A DNA stretch of 51,859 nt from Oscillospiraceae bacterium (GTDB lineage: Bacteria > Bacillota > Clostridia > Oscillospirales > Oscillospiraceae): positions 1-51,859 of the forward strand of contig JAFSEW010000002.1 in the NCBI GenBank assembly GCA_017435525.1, written 5' to 3'. The notes under the pieces were generated by a model, which was given only the letters and a program-made list of their open reading frames with translations, was not told where the DNA came from and did not search any database. A program made the translations under genes and the position numbers. Shown here piece by piece: positions 4,210 to 21,356 of the stretch (position 1 is the stretch's first letter; each line of letters starts with the position of its first letter).

Positions 4210-4896
4210 ATGGCCATTTCTGTACTGGTTGTGGAAGATGACCGCAATATTGCTGAGCTGCTGCAGATGTATCTGGAAAAGGAAGGCTATGCCGTGACCG
4301 TTGCCGCTGACGGCGGCCAGGGTCTTGCAAAATTCCGTGCCATCAAGCCCGATTTGGTGCTGCTGGATGTGATGATGCCCGTGATGGATGGCTGGGCCGT
4401 GTGCAAGGCTATCCGTGCCGACAGTCAGACTCCCGTAATCATGCTCACCGCCAAGGGAGAAACCGATGACAAAGTGGCAGGCCTGAAATCCGGCGCTGAT
4501 GACTATATCACCAAGCCCTTTGAAATGAAGGAAGTACTGGCCCGGATCGAAGCGGTACTGCGCCGCAGCAGCGGCGTTACTGCGGAGAGCAAATCCCGCC
4601 GCTTGGTATTCGACAAGCTGATCATCGATATGGATGCATTTGAGCTGACCGTGGATGGCAGAAAGGTGGATACGCCGCCTAAGGAGATGGAGCTGCTGTT
4701 CTATCTGGCCTCCTCTCCCAACCGGGTGTATACCCGCAATCAGCTGCTGGATGAAGTGTGGGGCTTTGATTATTTCGGCGATTCCCGCACCGTGGATGTG
4801 CATGTGAAGCGGCTGCGTGAAAAACTGGAGGGCGTCTGCGACAGCTGGAGCCTGAAAACCGTGTGGGGCGTGGGATATAAGTTCGAGGTGCTGTAA
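4210..4896 (+). CDS. OmpR/PhoB-family response regulator
   Basis: This 228-residue protein has an N-terminal receiver domain (acidic pocket ED at 9-10, phospho-acceptor Asp53 in LLDVMMP, Lys in ITKPF) and a C-terminal winged-helix domain ending in the typical RTVDVHVKRLREKL and VWGVGYKFE segments. It starts behind ACAGGAGGAT, with a TATAAT hexamer at 4164-4169 upstream but no clear -35. The partner kinase follows after 2 bases. Targets are unknown; the downstream HtrA protease suggests an envelope-stress role, by inference only. Confidence 0.93.
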   Translation: MAISVLVVEDDRNIAELLQMYLEKEGYAVTVAADGGQGLAKFRAIKPDLVLLDVMMPVMDGWAVCKAIRADSQTPVIMLTAKGETDDKVAGLKSGADDYITKPFEMKEVLARIEAVLRRSSGVTAESKSRRLVFDKLIIDMDAFELTVDGRKVDTPPKEMELLFYLASSPNRVYTRNQLLDEVWGFDYFGDSRTVDVHVKRLREKLEGVCDSWSLKTVWGVGYKFEVL

Positions 4897-4898
4897 GT

Positions 4899-6332
4899 AT
4901 GCGATCTACCTTCAGCCGAACTTTTTTCCCGGCAGCGCTGCTGCTGCTGATCGCGCTGATGCTGGTAGGCACCTCTTTTCAGATGTTGGTGCGGAACTAT
5001 CTGACCAACCAGGCCTTTGACAGTCTGGAAAATGACGGCAAGGCCATTTCATCCCTGGCATCAGCCTATTATTCCGAGGGGCATTCCTTCGGTCGGGACT
5101 TTTATTTGAATCTTTCCATCGCGTCGCAGGTATCCGATGCCGATGCTGTGATCTTCGACATCAAAGGACGGCTGCTCCTTTGCTCCGATGCCCCCTATGG
5201 CTGTGACCATCAGGGCTGGGTCATTGAGCAGGATGCCTATATCCATCAGGTTCTGGAACAGGGGATTGCCCGGCATACGGGACTGTTCTCCGGCTTGTAT
5301 AACGATACCCGCTATGTGGTATCGGTACCCATTACCGATCTGCAGACAGGGGAAAGTCTGGGCATCGTCATGGTGTCCACCCCCATGCGCGCCACTTTGG
5401 ATGTGCTGGACCGGCTTTCTGACATCTATATATTCGTTTCGCTGCTGTCGGTGGCTGTAGCCGTGATTATCATGAGCATCTTTGCCCGGCATCACAGCAC
5501 GCCGCTGCGGGAAATGGCCCGTGCTGCCCGGGCCTTCGGCCACGGCAATCTGGAAGCCCGTGTCACCGTAAAGCCTTCCTATGCACAGGAAGTGGAGGAG
5601 CTGGCTCTGGCTTTCAATAATATGGCCTCTTCCCTGCAGAAGAGCGAATATCAGCGGCAGGAATTTGTTGCCAACGTTTCCCATGAGCTGAAAACCCCCA
5701 TGACTACCATCGGCGGCTATATCGACGGTATTCTGGACGGCACCATCCCGGAAGAAAGAAGCCGTCACTACATGCAGATCGTTTCCGATGAGATCAAGCG
5801 GCTGAGCCGACTGGTGCGCAGTATGCTGGATATTTCCCAGCTGCAGGATCAGCAGGGTATCCCGGAAGAGAAAATGACCCGCTTCGATCTGGAAGAATGC
5901 GCCGGCCGCACCCTGATTACCTTTGAGCAGAAGATTCTGGGAAAAAACCTTTCTGTGGAAGTGGATATGCCGGAGCACCCCGTATATATCCGGGCCAATC
6001 AGGACTATGTGACCCAGGTGATCTACAACCTGCTGGACAACGCCGTAAAATTCTGCCCGGACGGCGGATTATTAGGTCTGACCATTAAGGAAGGCCCCGA
6101 AAAAGCGTATGTAACCATCGCCAACGAAGGCGAGACAATCCCGCCGGAGGAGCTGCCTCTGGTGTTCGACCGGTTCCACAAAACCGACAAAAGCCGCTCT
6201 CAGAACCGGGACGGCTGGGGTCTTGGCCTGTATATTGTCAAGACTATCGTATGCAGCCACGGCGAGAACATCTCCGTTTCCAGCCGTGACGGTAAGACAG
6301 AATTCACCTTCACCATGCCCCTGGTAAATTAA
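4899..6332 (+). CDS. Membrane sensor histidine kinase
   Basis: This 477-residue kinase has a first membrane helix at about residues 8-30, an extracellular sensor domain of about 130 residues and a second helix near 170-195. A HAMP linker follows, then a HisKA domain with VSHELKTP (phospho-acceptor His262) and a HATPase domain with N box LLDNAVKF and G box GWGLGLYI. It is the partner of the response regulator immediately upstream. The HtrA gene begins 14 bases after its stop, so all three genes are probably one transcript. The signal sensed cannot be told from the sequence. Confidence 0.93.
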   Translation: MRSTFSRTFFPAALLLLIALMLVGTSFQMLVRNYLTNQAFDSLENDGKAISSLASAYYSEGHSFGRDFYLNLSIASQVSDADAVIFDIKGRLLLCSDAPYGCDHQGWVIEQDAYIHQVLEQGIARHTGLFSGLYNDTRYVVSVPITDLQTGESLGIVMVSTPMRATLDVLDRLSDIYIFVSLLSVAVAVIIMSIFARHHSTPLREMARAARAFGHGNLEARVTVKPSYAQEVEELALAFNNMASSLQKSEYQRQEFVANVSHELKTPMTTIGGYIDGILDGTIPEERSRHYMQIVSDEIKRLSRLVRSMLDISQLQDQQGIPEEKMTRFDLEECAGRTLITFEQKILGKNLSVEVDMPEHPVYIRANQDYVTQVIYNLLDNAVKFCPDGGLLGLTIKEGPEKAYVTIANEGETIPPEELPLVFDRFHKTDKSRSQNRDGWGLGLYIVKTIVCSHGENISVSSRDGKTEFTFTMPLVN

Positions 6333-6346
6333 AGCGAGGTAATCCA

Positions 6347-7627
6347 ATGAGTAAAGAAACCAATCAGCCCTGGGATGCACCGGACTATGATCCCTGGAAC
6401 CAGGGCACCTATCGCACCGGCTCGACGCGGCCGCCCAAAAGTCACGGCGGCCTGATTGCCCTGCTGCTGGTGTTGGTGATTCTCCTTTCCGGCATCACCA
6501 CAATTTTGGGCGTTGTGAATATCCGGCTGTTCCGGCAGGTCAATACCGCGGAGCCCGGGGAAACGCTGCCCATTTCCTTCTCCAATGACAATCCCGCCCA
6601 TTTAAGCACCATTCCTCCGGAAGAAATTTCCATCTCCGCCACAGAGAGTCCCGCCGCGGATACCGTCATTCTGGCACCCCCTGTTGTGGGTGCGGAAAAT
6701 CTTCCCCAGGAGGGAGGCCTCTCCCTGCAGAAGATTTATGATACGGTAATCAATTCCGTAGTATCCATTTCCTGCACCAACGCAGCCGGAGGTTCCACAG
6801 GCACAGGTGTTGTGCTGACCTACGACGGCTACATTGTCACCAACTGCCATGTGGTGGAAAACGCCCGGTATATCCAGGTACTGCTCACCGACGGCAGAAC
6901 CGCAGATGCCACCCTGGTGGGCATGGACGAGATCTCCGATCTGGCTGTGCTGCAGATCAACGCCGAGAATCTGTCCCCGGCGCAGCTGGGGGACTCCGCC
7001 TCCCTGCGGGTGGGCGATACCGTAGTGGCCATCGGCGATCCTCTGGGCATCAAGCTCCGGGGCACCATGACCGACGGCATCATCTCTGCCATCAGCCGGG
7101 ATATTGATGTGGACGGCAGAACCATGAACCTGATCCAGACCAACGCGGCTTTGAATTCCGGTAACTCCGGCGGCCCGCTGATCAACTGCTACGGCCAGGT
7201 AATCGGCATCAACACCATGAAAATAGGCGACAGTATGAGCGTTGCCGGTGTGGAAGGCCTGGGATTTGCCATCCCCAGCGCCACGGTTTCCGACATTGTG
7301 AACCAGCTGATCAATCAGGGCTATGTTTCCGGCAGACCTACCCTGGGTATCACCGGTGAAAGCATTTCCAACCTGTATCATTTCTATTACCGGCTGCCCA
7401 AGGGGTTGTATATCACCGCTGTGGAATCCGGCAGCAGCGCCGACATTGCCGGTATTGAAGAGGGCGATATTCTGCTGAGCCTGGAGGGTGTGACCATTAC
7501 CACCAACGATTCTTTGAAGGCACAGCTGTATAACTACGCCCCCGGTGACCAGATCACCGCCATTATCTACCGCAGCGGCAACCAGTATGCGGTAACCCTG
7601 ACAGTAGGGGAGGCCAAAGGATCATGA
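6347..7627 (+). CDS. HtrA/DegP-type membrane-anchored serine protease
   Basis: This 426-residue protein has a cytoplasmic N-tail, one membrane helix (about residues 38-60), a variable linker, a trypsin-like domain and one C-terminal PDZ domain. The catalytic triad is visible: His168 in TNCHVV, Asp198 in ISDLAVL and Ser274 in GNSGGPL. This is the usual Gram-positive HtrA layout for degrading misfolded exported proteins. It lies in an apparent operon with a two-component system, which recalls CssRS-type control of htrA. Its stop overlaps the next start (ATGA), coupling it to the thioesterase. Confidence 0.93.
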   Translation: MSKETNQPWDAPDYDPWNQGTYRTGSTRPPKSHGGLIALLLVLVILLSGITTILGVVNIRLFRQVNTAEPGETLPISFSNDNPAHLSTIPPEEISISATESPAADTVILAPPVVGAENLPQEGGLSLQKIYDTVINSVVSISCTNAAGGSTGTGVVLTYDGYIVTNCHVVENARYIQVLLTDGRTADATLVGMDEISDLAVLQINAENLSPAQLGDSASLRVGDTVVAIGDPLGIKLRGTMTDGIISAISRDIDVDGRTMNLIQTNAALNSGNSGGPLINCYGQVIGINTMKIGDSMSVAGVEGLGFAIPSATVSDIVNQLINQGYVSGRPTLGITGESISNLYHFYYRLPKGLYITAVESGSSADIAGIEEGDILLSLEGVTITTNDSLKAQLYNYAPGDQITAIIYRSGNQYAVTLTVGEAKGS

Positions 7628-14937: not shown

Positions 14938-15429
14938 ATGGAATCTGAAAACCTCATTGAATCCTTGATCGCACTGGTCAATGAATTTGATTTTGCAAAA
15001 ATGATGCCGGAGTTGGACAGTGTTATGGGCTGGATCGACCTGTTCGTGCGGCTTTGTGTGCTGGCAGCCCCTGTTGCTGTGCTGTTCTTCGGCCTTTGGT
15101 GGCTGATTCTGCCCCCCAAGGAAGCCAACCATCATGTGGGTTACCGGTGCTTCTTCGGCATGGGCAGTGTGGACGCCTGGCGCTTTACCCAGAAGATTGC
15201 CGGTGTGCTCTTTACTGTGCTGGGTGTGGGTTTGCTGGCCATCTCCCTGCTGGTGAGCAACCGCTTCCCGGATATGGAACCCATGGTCATGCTGGACAAG
15301 GCTGTGGTATGTATCCTGTGGCAAATCGGCATCACATTGGTGCTGAGCCTGATGATCAACCTGATCGTCGCCCTGCGCTATGACCGCAATGGCGACCTGC
15401 GCAGCGAAAAGTCGATCAACGATAAATAA
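14938..15429 (+). CDS. SdpI-like membrane protein
   Basis: This 163-residue protein has an N-terminal helical segment and three membrane helices (about residues 37-58, 84-105 and 120-145). After the first helix comes HHVGYRCFFGMGSVDAWRFTQKIAG. It resembles the conserved GYR...S...W segment of the SdpI family, known from the SdpC toxin immunity protein of Bacillus, though most members have no assigned role. It starts behind AAGGAG, 10 bases after nrdR. Family membership is moderate; function is unknown. Confidence 0.6.
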   Translation: MESENLIESLIALVNEFDFAKMMPELDSVMGWIDLFVRLCVLAAPVAVLFFGLWWLILPPKEANHHVGYRCFFGMGSVDAWRFTQKIAGVLFTVLGVGLLAISLLVSNRFPDMEPMVMLDKAVVCILWQIGITLVLSLMINLIVALRYDRNGDLRSEKSINDK

Positions 15430-15650: not shown

Positions 15651-15796
15651 GCGACAGTTTTCGAACTGTTTCCTATGTATGTCTAAGGTTCAAGTTATAT
15701 AATTATACTGTATTTCTGCAGCTTTGCATGCAGCGCCCATGAAATCGTCACATTTGCGTGTTATACTATAATAAACTCTGCTCAAAGGAGGCTGCC

Positions 15797-16471
15797 ATGA
15801 AGCTATTGTATGCCGAAGATGAACCGGCTTTGTCTGAAGCCGTTGTTGATTACCTTACATACCATAAATACATCGTGGATGCCGTGTATGACGGTGCCGA
15901 TGCCTATGATTATGCCATGTCCGGCGAATATGACGGCATTCTTCTTGATATTATGATGCCAAAGCGTGACGGGTTGGAAGTGCTGTCTGCTCTGCGCAGA
16001 AACGGATGCAGAACTCCGGTACTTCTGCTGACTGCAAAAACGCAGGTGGAGGATCGCATCCGTGGCTTGGATACCGGGGCGGACGATTATCTGCCCAAGC
16101 CTTTTGATATGGGTGAACTGATTGCCAGAATCCGTGCCATGCTCAGACGACGGGAGGAATTTCATCCGGACTTGATTCACTTTGGAGACTTAACGCTGAA
16201 TATGCAGTCCGGTGAGATCAGCGTGGGAGAGATTTCCTTTCAGCTGCCCAAGCAGGAATACCGTCTGATGGAGCAGCTCATGCTGAACAACACGATGTTT
16301 CTGTCCACCGAAGATTTACTGGTGAAAGCATGGGGATTTAATACTGAAACGGATATTAACAGCGTCTGGCTGTATATTTCTTATCTGCGCAAACGGCTTA
16401 TTTCCATGAACTCCAAGGTCGAGATTGTTTCAAAGCGTAATATTGGATACAAACTGGAGTTTCAGCCATGA
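15797..16471 (+). CDS. OmpR-family response regulator of the VTC/CotH locus
   Basis: This 224-residue protein has a receiver domain (acidic EDE at 7-9, phospho-acceptor Asp51 in ILLDIMMP, Lys in LPKPF) and a winged-helix DNA-binding domain ending SYLRKRLISMNSKVEIVSKRNIGYKLEF. The ATG at 15797 lies 5 bases after AAAGGAGG (15784-15791); an upstream in-frame start at 15758 is not supported. Its stop overlaps the kinase start (ATGA). Codon use is more AT-rich than in genes to the left, suggesting transfer. It probably controls the genes at 17807-21241, by proximity. Confidence 0.92.
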   Translation: MKLLYAEDEPALSEAVVDYLTYHKYIVDAVYDGADAYDYAMSGEYDGILLDIMMPKRDGLEVLSALRRNGCRTPVLLLTAKTQVEDRIRGLDTGADDYLPKPFDMGELIARIRAMLRRREEFHPDLIHFGDLTLNMQSGEISVGEISFQLPKQEYRLMEQLMLNNTMFLSTEDLLVKAWGFNTETDINSVWLYISYLRKRLISMNSKVEIVSKRNIGYKLEFQP

Positions 16472-17688
16472 CAAAGACATTAAAAAGACGATTTATCGTA
16501 TTCACTATGGCGGCAGTTACCTGTTTGCTGGTGTTCATCGTCCTTGCAATCAACAGCCTTAACTGGATGATGCTGGAACGCCAGTCTGATATGGTACTGG
16601 AAACGCTTGTGGATGCTGACGGTATCTTTCAACAAATGGATTTCAACCGTCCTCCACCTTTCTCACGCCCGCTGGATATGGACAGAATGCGAGCTTCTCG
16701 TTTTTTTACTGTCCGAAGTGATTTTAGCGGCAATATCGTGGAGGTCAATATTGATCAAATATCTGCCATTGACCAAGAAACAGCCAAAAGCTATGCGTTG
16801 GAAGTGCTGAAATCAGACAACACCTCCGGTCGGGTACATGGATACAAATATGCGGTAAAGCAATTAGGCCCGAACAAATTGACATTTTTTATGGACACTT
16901 CGGAGCAAAGTGAAAACTTCCGCATGGTTCTGTTTGCATCCACAGCAATAGCGGTGCTGTGCTGGGTGATTCTGCTGATGATCGTGATCCTGCTTTCGGG
17001 CAAGGTCATTCGTCCTGTGCTTGCGGGTATGGAGAAGCAAAAGCAATTCATCACAAATGCCGGACATGAAATGAAAACACCTCTTGCCATCATTCAGTCC
17101 AATAACGACACCATGTCGCTGATCCACGGTGAGAACAAGTACAATGTGCATATCCGCAATCAAACCAAGCGTCTGAATGTACTGATGTCCAATCTGCTTA
17201 CTCTTGCCAAATTGGATGAGGAAATTCCCCTGCCGACAGAAACAGTAAATATCAGCGATGTAACGAAGGAACTGCTTCCGGTCTATATGGAGGCTGCTGG
17301 TTCACGAAATCTTCGGTTCTCTGTGCAGATTGAGCCGGATATTGTCATTCAAACCAACAAAGACAGTTTCCGTCAGATGATGACGATTCTGCTGGATAAT
17401 GCGCTCAAATACACCCTCGAGGGCGGCAATATCCATTTGTCGCTTGCAAGGGATGGCAGACACATTCAGATTATCACAGAAAACACCTGTGATCCGTCCC
17501 TTGAGCCAGACCCGGAGAGACTGTTTGAACGCTTTTACCGAGGGGATGCTGCCCGTACACAGAAAAGGGAATCCTCCGGTTATGGTATCGGCTTATCTGC
17601 GGCGCGTGCAATCTGTGAGAACTTCGGCGGCAAACTGACAGCGGAATACGCCTCTGATAACAGCATTCGCTTTGCCGCCAGATTTTAG
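16468..17688 (+). CDS. Membrane sensor histidine kinase of the VTC/CotH locus
   Basis: This 406-residue kinase has a first helix at about residues 9-32, an extracellular sensor of about 115 residues and a second helix near 150-175. The HisKA domain has AGHEMKTPLAIIQSN (phospho-acceptor His200). The HATPase domain has N box LLDNALKY and G box GYGIGLSAARAI. There is no clear HAMP domain between the second helix and HisKA; the linker is short. It is translationally coupled to the regulator and followed by a terminator at 17707-17746, so the genes beyond have their own promoter. Confidence 0.92.
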   Translation: MTKTLKRRFIVFTMAAVTCLLVFIVLAINSLNWMMLERQSDMVLETLVDADGIFQQMDFNRPPPFSRPLDMDRMRASRFFTVRSDFSGNIVEVNIDQISAIDQETAKSYALEVLKSDNTSGRVHGYKYAVKQLGPNKLTFFMDTSEQSENFRMVLFASTAIAVLCWVILLMIVILLSGKVIRPVLAGMEKQKQFITNAGHEMKTPLAIIQSNNDTMSLIHGENKYNVHIRNQTKRLNVLMSNLLTLAKLDEEIPLPTETVNISDVTKELLPVYMEAAGSRNLRFSVQIEPDIVIQTNKDSFRQMMTILLDNALKYTLEGGNIHLSLARDGRHIQIITENTCDPSLEPDPERLFERFYRGDAARTQKRESSGYGIGLSAARAICENFGGKLTAEYASDNSIRFAARF

Positions 17689-17706
17689 ATTATAATACAT
17701 GTTCAA

Positions 17707-17746
17707 AAAAACCTTCCCGTGTTCGTTCACACATGGGAAGGTTTTT
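17707..17746 (+). terminator. Terminator of the second two-component system
   Basis: Stem AAAAACCTTCCC (17707-17718) pairs with GGGAAGGTTTTT (17735-17746). An inner GTGT/ACAC pairing adds to the stem, and the right arm supplies the T run. Confidence 0.88.
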
Positions 17747-17806
17747 CTAATGTAGCTCATAGGTTGACCAAGTATAATGGTAGCCATAGAAAGGAGGAAT
17801 GCCGTT

Positions 17807-18478
17807 TTGCAATTCAGACATGAAGTAAAACATGAGATCAGCCATCACGATATGCTGATTCTGAGGCAACGGCTTCGGGCGGTGATGAAACCGGACAGCC
17901 ATGCCGTAAACGGGCGCTATAAAATACGAAGTTTGTATTTTGACAGCCTTGACGATAAAGCTCTCAGAGAAAAACTGGATGGGGTAAATATCCGTGAAAA
18001 GTACCGCATCCGTCTGTATAATAACGATCCTTCCATTATTCATCTGGAACGAAAGTTCAAACGCGGCAGTCTTGGCTACAAGAACTCTACGGGGCTTACG
18101 CCGGAACAGGCACAAGCGATTGCCGATGGCGATGTAGAATGGATGGCGGGTAGTACCGATGAAGTCATCCTTGGCTTTTATACCTGCATCCGAAACGAAG
18201 GACTGAAAGCAAAGGTCATCGTGGACTACATCCGAGAGCCGTTTGTATTTGCTCCCGGCAATGTCCGTGTCACACTGGATTATGAGATTCATACCGGTAT
18301 GCGCTGTACGGATTTTCTGAATCCCGACTGTGTTACCGTCCCAATCATGGATTCGCCTTGCATCCTTGAAGTAAAGTGGGATAACTTCCTGCCCGATGTC
18401 ATTCGGGATGCCGTACAACTTGATAATAGACGCAGCGCAGCGTTTTCCAAGTATGCTGCCAGCCGTATGTACGATTAA
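17807..18478 (+). CDS. VTC-domain protein, predicted polyphosphate polymerase
   Basis: This 223-residue soluble protein is a single VTC domain, the fold of the yeast polyphosphate polymerase Vtc4. The elements that form the basic tunnel are visible in order: FRHEVKH at the start, YKIRSLYFDS, REKYRIRLYN, HLERKFKR, VDYIREPF, VRVTLDYEI and ILEVKWDN. TTG at 17807 is preferred: AAAGGAGG lies at 17790-17797 and the VTC fold starts exactly there. An upstream in-frame ATG (17777) overlaps a TATAAT that may be the promoter -10 (17773-17778). It is the first gene of a three-gene set with DUF4956 and CotH proteins. Polymerase activity is inferred from retained motifs. Confidence 0.85.
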   Translation: MQFRHEVKHEISHHDMLILRQRLRAVMKPDSHAVNGRYKIRSLYFDSLDDKALREKLDGVNIREKYRIRLYNNDPSIIHLERKFKRGSLGYKNSTGLTPEQAQAIADGDVEWMAGSTDEVILGFYTCIRNEGLKAKVIVDYIREPFVFAPGNVRVTLDYEIHTGMRCTDFLNPDCVTVPIMDSPCILEVKWDNFLPDVIRDAVQLDNRRSAAFSKYAASRMYD

Positions 18479-18513
18479 ACCAACACCAACAAAGTAAAGG
18501 AGTAACCCAAACT

Positions 18514-19185
18514 ATGAATTTCAATGATATTCTTAAGTCCAGTTTTCTGGAAAATGTATCTTCGATCGGCGTACTGGATATGCTGCTGACCATCATGCTG
18601 TCCTTCGGCATTGGTCTTTTCATCTTCCTCATCTATAAGAAAACTTATCGTGGCGTGATGTATTCCGCAGGCTTCGGTACGACCCTGATTGCCTTGACCA
18701 TGATTACATCCATCGTCATTCTCGCTGTAACTTCCAATGTCGTTCTGTCCCTCGGTATGGTCGGTGCGTTGTCCATCGTTCGTTTCCGTACCGCCATTAA
18801 GGACCCTCTGGACATTGCGTTCCTGTTCTGGTCGATTGGTGCCGGTATTATCCTCGCCGCCGGTATGATTCCCCTTGCCATCATTGGCAGCGTGTGCATC
18901 GGTCTGATTCTGCTGGTATTTGTCAATCAGAAGTCCCACATGCATCCTTATATGGTGGTGCTGAACTGCATCAACCATGATGCAGAAGTAAAAGCCAAAG
19001 AGTTCCTTGCAAAGAATGTCACCCGATCCACCGTCAAAAGCAAATCCGCTGTTAAGGGTGCGATTGAAATGAACATTGAAGTCCGTCTGAAGGAAGACGA
19101 TACCGATTTTATCAACATTCTCTCCGAAATGCCCGGTGTGAACAGCGCTGTTATCGTTTCCTACAACGGCGATTACATGGGGTGA
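18514..19185 (+). CDS. DUF4956-family membrane protein
   Basis: This 223-residue protein has about four membrane helices in its first 145 residues and a cytosolic C-terminal ferredoxin-like domain of about 75 residues. The signature GMVGALSIVRFRTAIKDPLDIAFLFWSIGAGI is that of DUF4956. No biochemical function is established for this family that I can name. It lies between the VTC and CotH genes, 35 bases and 4 bases away, behind AAAGGAG. A role as the membrane partner of the VTC protein is an inference from gene order. Confidence 0.85.
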   Translation: MNFNDILKSSFLENVSSIGVLDMLLTIMLSFGIGLFIFLIYKKTYRGVMYSAGFGTTLIALTMITSIVILAVTSNVVLSLGMVGALSIVRFRTAIKDPLDIAFLFWSIGAGIILAAGMIPLAIIGSVCIGLILLVFVNQKSHMHPYMVVLNCINHDAEVKAKEFLAKNVTRSTVKSKSAVKGAIEMNIEVRLKEDDTDFINILSEMPGVNSAVIVSYNGDYMG

Positions 19186-19189
19186 GGGT

Positions 19190-21241
19190 ATGTCTGGGAG
19201 CAAACATTTTGACAAAATAGCATGGTCTGTTACAGCTTTCATACTGGTCGTTACGCTCCTGTTTATGAACGGCGGCGCATTTGGTCTTGAAGCTATGGCA
19301 CATACCATGGGATATGAAAACCGCCTATTTGACAATACGAAGGTGCATACCATTGATATTGTCATGGACGATTGGGACGCGTTTATTGCCAATGCCACAA
19401 GTGAGGAATACTATACTGCTGCCATGGTAATCGACGGCGAAGCCTATCAAAACATAGGTATCCGTGGCAAGGGTAATACATCTTTGTCTACGGTTTCCTC
19501 CATGAACAGTGATCGATACAGCTTTAAGGTGGAGTTTGACCACTACGATAATTCCATCACTTATCACGGGCTTGATAAGCTCAGTCTGAACAATCTGATC
19601 CAGGACACTACCATGATGAAGGATTATCTGACCTACACCATGATGAATGCGTTCGAAGTTACTGCGCCCCTTTGCAGCTTCGTGTATATCACCGTCAACG
19701 GCGAGGATTGGGGACTGTATCTTGCGGTAGAGGGTGTAGAGGACAGCTTCCTTGAACGCAATTACGGCTCAAACTACGGCGAACTATACAAACCGGACAG
19801 CATGAGCTTTGGTGGTGGTCGTGGCAACGGTAAAGACTTCAATATGGACGATTTTATGAATCGTGAGGAATCTGCGGATAGCTCCGAGCAAGAAGCAACA
19901 ATGCCTGAAGGATTTGGCGGCGAAATACCCAACATGGGCAACTTCGATCCCTCGCAGATGCCTGGTATGACACAGGGTAATTCTGAAAACAGCAAGGAAC
20001 CTTCTTCGGCCGGTGGCAGAGGCGGCTTTGGTGGAAAGGATTCCTCTGATGTAAAACTTCAGTATGTTGATGACAATATGTCCAGCTACTCCAACATCTG
20101 GAACAATGCCAAGACTGATATAACCGCTGCCGATCAAACACGGCTGATTGAATCTTTGAAAAAGTTGTCAAATGGCGAACAGATTGAATCTGTCGTGGAT
20201 ATTGAACAGGTTATCCGCTATTTCGTCGTTCACAACTATGTGTGTAACGGTGACAGCTACACCGGCTCTATGATCCACAATTACTATCTGTACGAAGAAA
20301 ACGGGCAGATGGCAATGATTCCCTGGGACTACAATCTGGCATTTGGTACATTCCAGGGCGGCAGCGGACAGAGTACGGTCAATACCCCGATTGATGCCCC
20401 TGTGTCCGGTGAAGCAGGAGAAGATCGTCCCATGTGGAACTGGATTCTGTCTGACGAAAGCTACACGGAAGTGTATCATCAGTATTTTGCCGCGTTCCTG
20501 AACACGGTGGATGTGCAGGCAATCATCGACAACGCCTACAACTTGATTAAGTCCTATGTAGAGAAAGACCCCACCGCATTTTACACCTATGAAGAATTTA
20601 AAACAGGTGTGGCAACCATGCGTCAGTTCTGCAGGCTTCGCAGCGAGAGTATTTCCATGCAGCTTGAAAACGGCGAAACCACAACCAATATGAGCTATGT
20701 GGATGCATCCGGTCTTACCACTTCCGACATGGGTTCCATGAGCGGAGGATTTGGCGGCAGTATGCCGGGCAGAGACAGCAATAAAGGGAACTTCGGAAAC
20801 CGTGGATCATCCCCCTCCTCCACAAAACCTAATACAGATGAGAGCACTTCTTCCGACCTGAACATCCAAGGAACTTCTGCATCCACACCGGAGGATATGC
20901 AGCGAAATGGTGCCATGCCTTCCATGCCCGAGGGTTTTGACCCTTCTCAGATGCCGGAAGGCTTCGATCCCTCGGGGATGCAAGGGGGTCTCGGCGGTAT
21001 GTTCCCCGGTCAGACCTCTGGCGGAACAGGCACAACTCCTTCGGATCATTCGGGGGACACCGATTCCACAGGCGACAGCAACCGCCCTTCCCGTGACAAT
21101 ATGCAGATGCCCGGTGGCGATTCCAATTTTAATATGAACGGCAATGCGGCTTCAAGCAGCACAAACTGGATATGGCTTGCCGTATCCGTACTGATTCTTG
21201 GTGTGGGCTTGCTCATTGCAAAACTTTATAAGAAATACTGA
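19190..21241 (+). CDS. CotH-kinase family membrane protein with Met/Gly/Pro-rich arms
   Basis: This 683-residue protein has an N-terminal membrane helix (about residues 8-30) and an extracellular CotH-type kinase fold. The fold carries IRGKGNTS, YSFKVEFD (candidate ATP-binding Lys), LNNLIQDTTMMKDYLTYTMM, YITVNGEDWGLYLAVEGVED and, after a long insertion, NGDSYTG...NYYLYEENG and IPWDYNLAFG (candidate catalytic and metal Asp). A low-complexity tail and a C-terminal helix WIWLAVSVLILGVGLLIAKL end the protein. CotH proteins phosphorylate spore-coat or surface proteins. The insertion (about residues 205-285) and tail (about 505-655) are rich in Gly, Met, Pro, Ser and repeat PEGF/FDPSQMP units. It starts 4 bases after the DUF4956 stop. 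Confidence 0.87.
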   Translation: MSGSKHFDKIAWSVTAFILVVTLLFMNGGAFGLEAMAHTMGYENRLFDNTKVHTIDIVMDDWDAFIANATSEEYYTAAMVIDGEAYQNIGIRGKGNTSLSTVSSMNSDRYSFKVEFDHYDNSITYHGLDKLSLNNLIQDTTMMKDYLTYTMMNAFEVTAPLCSFVYITVNGEDWGLYLAVEGVEDSFLERNYGSNYGELYKPDSMSFGGGRGNGKDFNMDDFMNREESADSSEQEATMPEGFGGEIPNMGNFDPSQMPGMTQGNSENSKEPSSAGGRGGFGGKDSSDVKLQYVDDNMSSYSNIWNNAKTDITAADQTRLIESLKKLSNGEQIESVVDIEQVIRYFVVHNYVCNGDSYTGSMIHNYYLYEENGQMAMIPWDYNLAFGTFQGGSGQSTVNTPIDAPVSGEAGEDRPMWNWILSDESYTEVYHQYFAAFLNTVDVQAIIDNAYNLIKSYVEKDPTAFYTYEEFKTGVATMRQFCRLRSESISMQLENGETTTNMSYVDASGLTTSDMGSMSGGFGGSMPGRDSNKGNFGNRGSSPSSTKPNTDESTSSDLNIQGTSASTPEDMQRNGAMPSMPEGFDPSQMPEGFDPSGMQGGLGGMFPGQTSGGTGTTPSDHSGDTDSTGDSNRPSRDNMQMPGGDSNFNMNGNAASSSTNWIWLAVSVLILGVGLLIAKLYKKY

Positions 21242-21324: not shown

Positions 21325-21356
21325 AAAGGCGGCTATCCATAGGGATAGCCGCCTTT
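21325..21356. terminator. Bidirectional terminator between CotH gene and psuG
   Basis: A 14-base perfect stem (AAAGGCGGCTATCC / GGATAGCCGCCTTT) closes on a 4-base loop, with A/T runs on both sides. It can end both the CotH transcript and psuG. Confidence 0.88.

Follow-up and report, generated by a model that had tools for sequence, protein, structure and literature searches.

The window analysed here, a 51,859-nucleotide stretch (forward strand) of contig JAFSEW010000002.1 from an Oscillospiraceae bacterium (GenBank assembly GCA_017435525.1), encodes five consecutive + strand genes for a response regulator (RR), a histidine kinase (HK), a VTC-domain protein, a DUF4956 membrane protein and a CotH-family protein (Table 1), each of which matches its family above the Pfam gathering score. 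VTC and DUF4956 are the constant unit of such loci, while CotH is variable and exchanges with Cthe_2159, a beta-helix binding family which is unrelated to CotH and is no kinase family. The locus is tentatively read, with a probability of about 0.4, as an operon under the control of its two-component system (TCS) that would make, at the membrane, a phosphate polymer for use by a surface protein.

Conservation of the VTC-DUF4956 pair

Synteny was surveyed in 147 genomes of the order using profile matches at E 0.001, with VTC found in 99 genomes, DUF4956 in 96, CotH in at least 85 and PPK1 in 50. Among the 135 VTC matches, one of which (G085:C14) is a fragment with two internal stops and a few others of which are partial, 126 have a DUF4956 match on the same strand no more than 2 kb away (about 0.2 expected, a rough estimate for 2.2-Mb genomes), 125 of them downstream, with a median gap of 150 bp between the two domains. 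Adjacent VTC-DUF4956 genes are present in 96 of the 147 genomes. CotH lies within 4 kb of at least 42 of the 135 VTC matches (about 0.4 expected on the same rough basis), in at least 37 genomes. Both families are thus neighbours of VTC beyond chance, and the possibility that the three genes lie together by chance alone, which the original prediction had named as a finding that would refute it, fails. Genome by genome, VTC is associated with CotH (fourfold counts 80/19/5/43, p 1e-16, among the matches listed), and PPK1 is distributed independently of VTC-DUF4956 (32/64/18/33, p 0.86). No PPK1 match was obtained by profile search in the host assembly (G000), which is 2.06 Mb in size and 77% complete.

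Exchange of CotH and Cthe_2159

The CotH domain of the window scores 210.3 bits against PF08757 (gathering score 23.8) and matches the CotH structure 5jd9 in the Protein Data Bank (PDB) at 7.2e-8. Both ends of the protein are hydrophobic (17-residue averages of 2.4 and 2.7), in agreement with the double anchoring originally claimed, and one tract consists of 50% Gly, Met and Pro. Residues N353, D355 and D380 are conserved in 90% or more of 25 sequences and may map to the region of B. subtilis CotH D228, which is named as catalytic (PMC7821199).

Partners of the VTC-DUF4956 pair were classified from BLAST clusters in 76 readable neighbourhoods out of 81 fetched (the VTC gene being missed by open reading frame (ORF) picking in the other five). 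The downstream partner is CotH in 23, Cthe_2159 in 17 and LTD-CotH in three neighbourhoods, while upstream partners comprise Cthe_2159 (four), LTD-CotH (eight) and plain CotH (one, L112). Neither a CotH nor a Cthe_2159 partner was found by clustering in 20 of the 76, a class into which all singletons were placed, wrongly for at least L035 and L100, which do have one by Pfam. A set of 80 named loci, found with CotH-type DUF4956, contains 52 loci with VTC and CotH, 24 with VTC and Cthe_2159, two with VTC and neither, one CotH locus with VTC cut by the contig end and one Cthe_2159 locus with VTC displaced; being the best 80 of at least 589 loci, this sample is biased towards close relatives.

In a tree of 94 DUF4956 proteins (59 partnered with CotH and 35 with Cthe_2159, including six Cthe_2159-type proteins on one long branch and leaving out seven of 101 rows that carry neither label), parsimony requires at least eight partner switches (8-10 over bootstraps), or at least three on well-supported branches alone. 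Exchange is also seen within the genus of the window, where loci L210-L213 carry Cthe_2159 and L214-L218 carry CotH (L211 and L214 confirmed by Pfam). CotH and Cthe_2159 hit separate Pfam models, and Cthe_2159 proteins are reported to bind cellulose and polygalacturonate (PMC6712302). No account of the exchange was found in the literature searched, a query naming both families included. Two further arrangements were recorded, namely a permuted DUF4956-Cthe_2159-VTC order in L182 (7995-11256) and, in L071 (1755-4681), a VTC-DUF4956 pair preceding a gene for an RsgI-like anti-sigma protein (PF23750), which recalls the sigma/anti-sigma genes of the clostridial locus NELoc-2 described below.

The exchanged proteins have features in common. 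By a statistic devised after the sequences had been inspected, a 50-residue stretch with at least 50% Gly, Met and Pro occurs in 29 of 77 CotH and 24 of 53 Cthe_2159 proteins, against none of 14 LTD-CotH, one of 760 other locus proteins and none of 118 secreted-like proteins. A C-terminal hydrophobic stretch is found in 35 of 52 CotH and 19 of 30 Cthe_2159 proteins; with 122 of 649 ORFs overall (ORFs of at least 250 aa in the 80 loci, third genes included) also having one, this feature alone is not rare. The window CotH possesses both the tract and the C-terminal anchor. On contig C21 of the same genome, two CotH genes encoding LTD-like N-terminal parts lie in tandem (L110, 4109-8825), with no VTC or DUF4956 match on the contig; both of these CotH proteins lack the tract and the anchor. 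The exchange, together with the common tracts and anchors, indicates that the common denominator of these loci is VTC-DUF4956 plus an often anchored surface protein, not a kinase. A machine joining polyphosphate to protein phosphorylation, as originally proposed, is therefore not supported as a general rule, for Cthe_2159 fills the CotH slot in many close relatives.

VTC protein

The VTC protein matches the Pfam VTC family at 1.2e-34, and its TTM tunnel fold is closest to that of yeast Vtc4, with Vtc4, Vtc3 and Vtc2 heading the fold list and being the only PDB sequences found by the VTC profile at 0.01. The seven basic residues equivalent to K200, R264, R266, K281, K294, R361 and R373 of Vtc4 are all invariant in 45 of 45 sequences, and none is substituted in the window protein, as expected from the claim that the basic-tunnel motifs are retained. 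We take K200, K281, K294, R361 and R373 to be tunnel residues of Vtc4. Residue E198 is likewise invariant (45 of 45) and may correspond to Vtc4 E426, the alignment with Vtc4 having ended before it. R264 and R266 are known as tunnel residues of Vtc4 (PMC9911596). On fold and residues, the bacterial protein is likely a polyphosphate polymerase.

DUF4956 protein

The AlphaFold2 model of the DUF4956 protein (predicted local distance difference test score 79.6) consists of helices up to residue 137, followed by a C-terminal ferredoxin-like domain. Below 1e-3, the PDB yields a single match, to the C-terminal domain of MgtC (2.4e-4), and the C-terminal domain matches NikR, S6 and ACT domains as well as or better than MgtC. 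Aligned by hhalign with a profile of ten MgtC proteins, DUF4956 reaches 96.9% (E 1.9e-10), or 88.2% with a single MgtC, while the controls SdpI and another membrane protein reach 0.95% and 0.1%, respectively. The window protein has no match to Pfam PF02308 at 1e-3 and lies under the cut-off of NCBIfam PRK09977 (28.2 bits against 214), and is thus MgtC-like rather than a member of that family; the DUF4956 protein of one relative matches PF02308 at 3.5e-4, under its cut-off. R90 and R92, forming an RxR motif, are invariant in 52 of 52 sequences. The name DUF4956 turns up in no more than three papers of the literature searched, and a 2025 paper on Streptococcus intermedius treats the family without that name, its homologue being already described as an MgtC transmembrane part plus an ACT domain (PMC12345266).

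Two-component system and promoter repeat

Among 72 neighbourhoods, 22 have a TCS gene in one of the first two places upstream of VTC; for other genes drawn from the same loci the figure is six of 132 (p 6e-7). By class, a TCS is adjacent in 10 of 21 loci with CotH downstream and six of 16 with Cthe_2159 downstream, and all 11 LTD-CotH loci lack one; among named loci having at least 2.3 kb upstream, 28 of 61 have an adjacent TCS, either co-directional or divergent. Counts of OmpR-type regulator domains in 30 genomes range from 1 to 18 per genome, with 12 in the host assembly. Across 35 co-directional HKs, conservation of the extracytoplasmic part is weak.

A direct repeat with the consensus CTAAG-N6-CTAAGGTT and 11-bp spacing separates the HK terminator from the VTC start. 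Repeats scoring at least 9 of 11 are present in 19 of the 35 co-directional TCS loci, against 12 of 712 background windows (upstream of every ORF of at least 200 aa, including chance ORFs, in the 80 named loci), loci with less than 150 bp upstream being left out of the operator count. The repeat was first spotted by eye in 11 loci, all within these 35, and the remaining loci give 11 matches in 24. By partner, it occurs in 12 of 17 CotH, six of 14 Cthe_2159 and one of four other co-directional loci; elsewhere it occurs in one of 22 divergent TCS loci and eight of 114 loci without an adjacent TCS. In these eight (L129, L141, L134, L124, L107, L188, L153 and L034) the cognate regulator may be encoded elsewhere, or some may match by chance. 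A TAnnnT box was sought from offset 24 on, outside the scoring, and 17 of the 18 seeds have one at offset 26 relative to the start of the repeat. The window repeat, itself one of the 18 seeds, outscores every other place in the window, both strands considered (matrix score 19.5 against 9.1 for the next). OmpR-type regulators typically use direct repeats spaced by one helical turn. The conserved repeat at the VTC promoter suggests that the adjacent TCS likely controls the VTC-DUF4956-CotH operon, which supports the switching claimed originally. Operator-like repeats were also found before the regulator gene in L139, L166 and L134 (matrix scores 24.7, 14.2 and 11.8), which suggests autoregulation in some lineages; the possible half-operator before the window regulator ranks sixth in the window, no better than four unrelated places.

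Locus layout

The gene set, positions and near-abutting order first described are borne out, with one correction at the VTC start. The RR and HK genes overlap by 4 bp, and gaps of 35 bp and 4 bp separate VTC from DUF4956 and DUF4956 from CotH, respectively; VTC-DUF4956-CotH is supported as one operon. The terminator predicted between HK and VTC is equally evident, none of 200 shuffles giving as good a hairpin. The VTC start listed at ATG 17777 is likely to be replaced by TTG 17807, because that ATG overlaps the TATAAT box (17773-17778), AGGAGG (17792-17797) precedes the TTG, and the starts of L114 and L116 agree.

Table 1. Features of the TCS-VTC-DUF4956-CotH locus in the window.
Feature	Position	Strand	Evidence or remark
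OmpR-type response regulator	15797..16471	+	Pfam Response_reg 6.8e-28, Trans_reg_C 3e-14
Membrane sensor histidine kinase	16468..17688	+	Pfam HisKA 1.8e-8, HATPase_c 6e-14
Intrinsic terminator, HK/VTC gap	17707..17746	+	16-pair hairpin, -25.2 kcal/mol, z -6.5
Direct repeat, 11-bp spacing, presumed response-regulator operator, CTAATG ... CATAGGTT	17747..17765	+	Conservation
-10 box TATAAT, presumed VTC promoter	17773..17778	+	Read in sequence
VTC ribosome-binding site AGGAGG	17792..17797	+	Read in sequence
VTC-domain (TTM) protein, presumed polyphosphate polymerase	17807..18478	+	223 aa from TTG; listed ORF from 17777
DUF4956 membrane protein	18514..19185	+	Pfam DUF4956 5.8e-12; MgtC-like helices and C-terminal ferredoxin/ACT-like domain
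CotH-family atypical kinase (predicted), N- and C-terminal hydrophobic anchors, Gly/Met/Pro-rich tracts	19190..21241	+	Pfam CotH 6.5e-62
Terminator-like site 3' of CotH	21325..21356	+	14-pair stem, then T-rich tail
Possible half-operator CTAAGGTTC and TATAAT, 5' of response regulator	15672..15705	+	Weak matrix score 8.9

The genes scanned around the operon encode DnaJ, a deaminase, a DUF308-like protein (under its cut-off), NrdR, an SdpI protein, Indigoidine_A, PfkB and GidA, the SdpI/YfhL-type membrane protein gene (14938-15429, PF13630) lying directly 5' of the regulator. At 4210-7627 the window holds what we take to be another regulator/kinase pair followed by an HtrA-like, trypsin-like protease with a PDZ-like part. 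Contig C15 of the same genome carries a further VTC-DUF4956 pair with CotH and LTD readings upstream (L003, 7848-11628), where the CotH and LTD parts are two separate ORFs, the second reaching the contig end.

Relation to known systems

The function of this combination is undefined in print, as originally stated, although the trio itself is published (PMC7112168, PMC2879425, PMC12345266). PMC7112168 describes genes for cotH, a polyphosphate polymerase, DUF4956 and DUF4832 as neighbours of Pel genes in streptococci, clostridia and bifidobacteria. The S. intermedius accessory genes SIR_1594-1592 comprise the same three neighbouring families as the window, which differs in its VTC-DUF4956-CotH order with its own TCS and predicted operator, in the lack of a PelG match in its assembly and in the replacement of CotH by Cthe_2159 in sister loci. 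According to PMC12345266, deletion of either DUF4956 or CotH cuts aggregation in artificial sputum by more than half, with Pel up in the former and down in the latter, and outside the Pel locus the authors' analyses detected no such arrangement of three genes. This remark fails here, since PelG (PF16933) exceeds its cut-off in only one of the 147 genomes (G116, adjoining one of its trios), against at least 37 with CotH near VTC; in the host assembly, 77% complete, PelG gave no match.

Clostridium perfringens NELoc-2 (PMC2879425) carries VTC, 'tubulin/FtsZ', CotH, HEAT and glycosyltransferase genes, and thus has VTC and CotH together as in the window, but with two VTC genes and a HEAT-glycosyltransferase tail. 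Its 'tubulin' genes are probably DUF4956 by size (222-226 aa) and place beside VTC. Where the window has a TCS, NELoc-2 has sigma/anti-sigma genes (PMC11677781). Plasmid-borne trios occur in Planococcus (L231, VTC-DUF4956-CotH-hypothetical-HEAT-glycosyltransferase) and, among exopolysaccharide (EPS) genes, in Pseudobutyrivibrio (L230, CotH-VTC-DUF4956). L106 (651-7541) and L107 (1675-8598) have the Planococcus-like order DUF4956-CotH-unknown(724)-HEAT-like-glycosyltransferase (family 2), which resembles NELoc-2.

Like the yeast VTC complex (Vtc4/Vtc3/Vtc1), the window pair combines a TTM polymerase fold and its residues with a membrane part, but its VTC protein has no SPX domain, its membrane partner is a separate MgtC-like protein, and it would presumably reside at the plasma membrane rather than the vacuole. 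DUF4956 resembles the MgtC/SapB family in the profile of its helices and in having a C-terminal ferredoxin/ACT-like domain, and is distinguished by its invariant RxR and by falling under the Pfam and NCBIfam MgtC thresholds. The window CotH has the conserved domain of the Bacillus spore-coat kinase (5jd9), but differs in its two hydrophobic anchors, its Gly/Met/Pro-rich insert and tail, and its gene context.

Proposed function and alternatives

In the proposed mechanism, the HK would sense some envelope signal and the phosphorylated regulator would bind the direct repeat 5' of the -10 box, switching on VTC-DUF4956-CotH. VTC, as a free-standing cytosolic tunnel enzyme, would polymerise the gamma-phosphate of ATP into polyphosphate, and DUF4956, whose partnership with VTC follows from synteny, may dock it and pass or anchor the growing chain at the membrane like the transmembrane part of yeast VTC. 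The chain, or phosphate from it, would then be used outside by the surface protein in the third slot, CotH here and Cthe_2159 in other lineages. A change in the adhesive or matrix properties of the surface is the suggested outcome, in view of the streptococcal mutants and of the Pel or glycosyltransferase genes near such loci. What weighs most strongly against this linear chain is that no aggregation decrease is reported for the S. intermedius VTC deletion in the available text (PMC12345266). That result could be due to a further polymerase or to the conditions of the assay, but just as well to DUF4956 and CotH acting independently of polyphosphate. A bolder and doubtful version regards VTC and DUF4956 as a split bacterial counterpart of yeast VTC, in which an MgtC-like translocator would secrete polyphosphate across the plasma membrane to interchangeable end-points. 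Cthe_2159, from a family binding polyanions such as polygalacturonate, might capture the polymer at the surface, and CotH, working where ATP is scarce, might take it as phosphoryl donor.

The matrix contexts also fit an accessory module for surface polysaccharides, in which the pair gives phosphate or energy for exopolymer modification or anchoring, CotH phosphorylates matrix or synthase proteins and Cthe_2159 binds acidic glycan, with no polyphosphate export. The trio in Pel loci (PMC7112168), the altered Pel level and aggregation of the mutants (PMC12345266), the glycosyltransferases near the trio in L230, L231, L106, L107 and NELoc-2, and the ligands of Cthe_2159 (PMC6712302) all speak for it; the rarity of PelG among genomes with CotH near VTC, and the lack of a glycosyltransferase among seven neighbouring window genes scanned, leave it unlikely, if deserving serious weight. 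The MgtC likeness of DUF4956, and an effect of Salmonella MgtC on phosphate metabolism mentioned in PMC12345266, would instead suit phosphate/magnesium homeostasis, with an intracellular polyphosphate store, DUF4956 acting on phosphate/ATP balance and the surface gene merely co-regulated through the same envelope or nutrient stress. Up to 20 of the 76 neighbourhoods lack both CotH and Cthe_2159 close by, as this explanation allows, but a surface protein repeatedly found in the next slot, and exchanged between unrelated families with common tracts and anchors, exceeds what co-regulation predicts, and we regard it as rather doubtful. That the VTC protein is a tri-/polyphosphatase or a nucleotide-binding TTM protein, with DUF4956 as its membrane regulator, is quite improbable given that Vtc4, Vtc3 and Vtc2 dominate both the fold and the profile searches.

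Significance

The VTC-DUF4956-CotH genes indicate a widespread, little-studied cell-surface system, whose wide distribution outside Pel loci corrects the published remark to the contrary (PMC12345266). The predicted operator and the CotH/Cthe_2159 exchange offer direct experimental handles. Should the pair prove to make and move polyphosphate, bacteria would have a route to this polymer distinct from PPK1, and the targets of extracytoplasmic CotH proteins could be explained as well.

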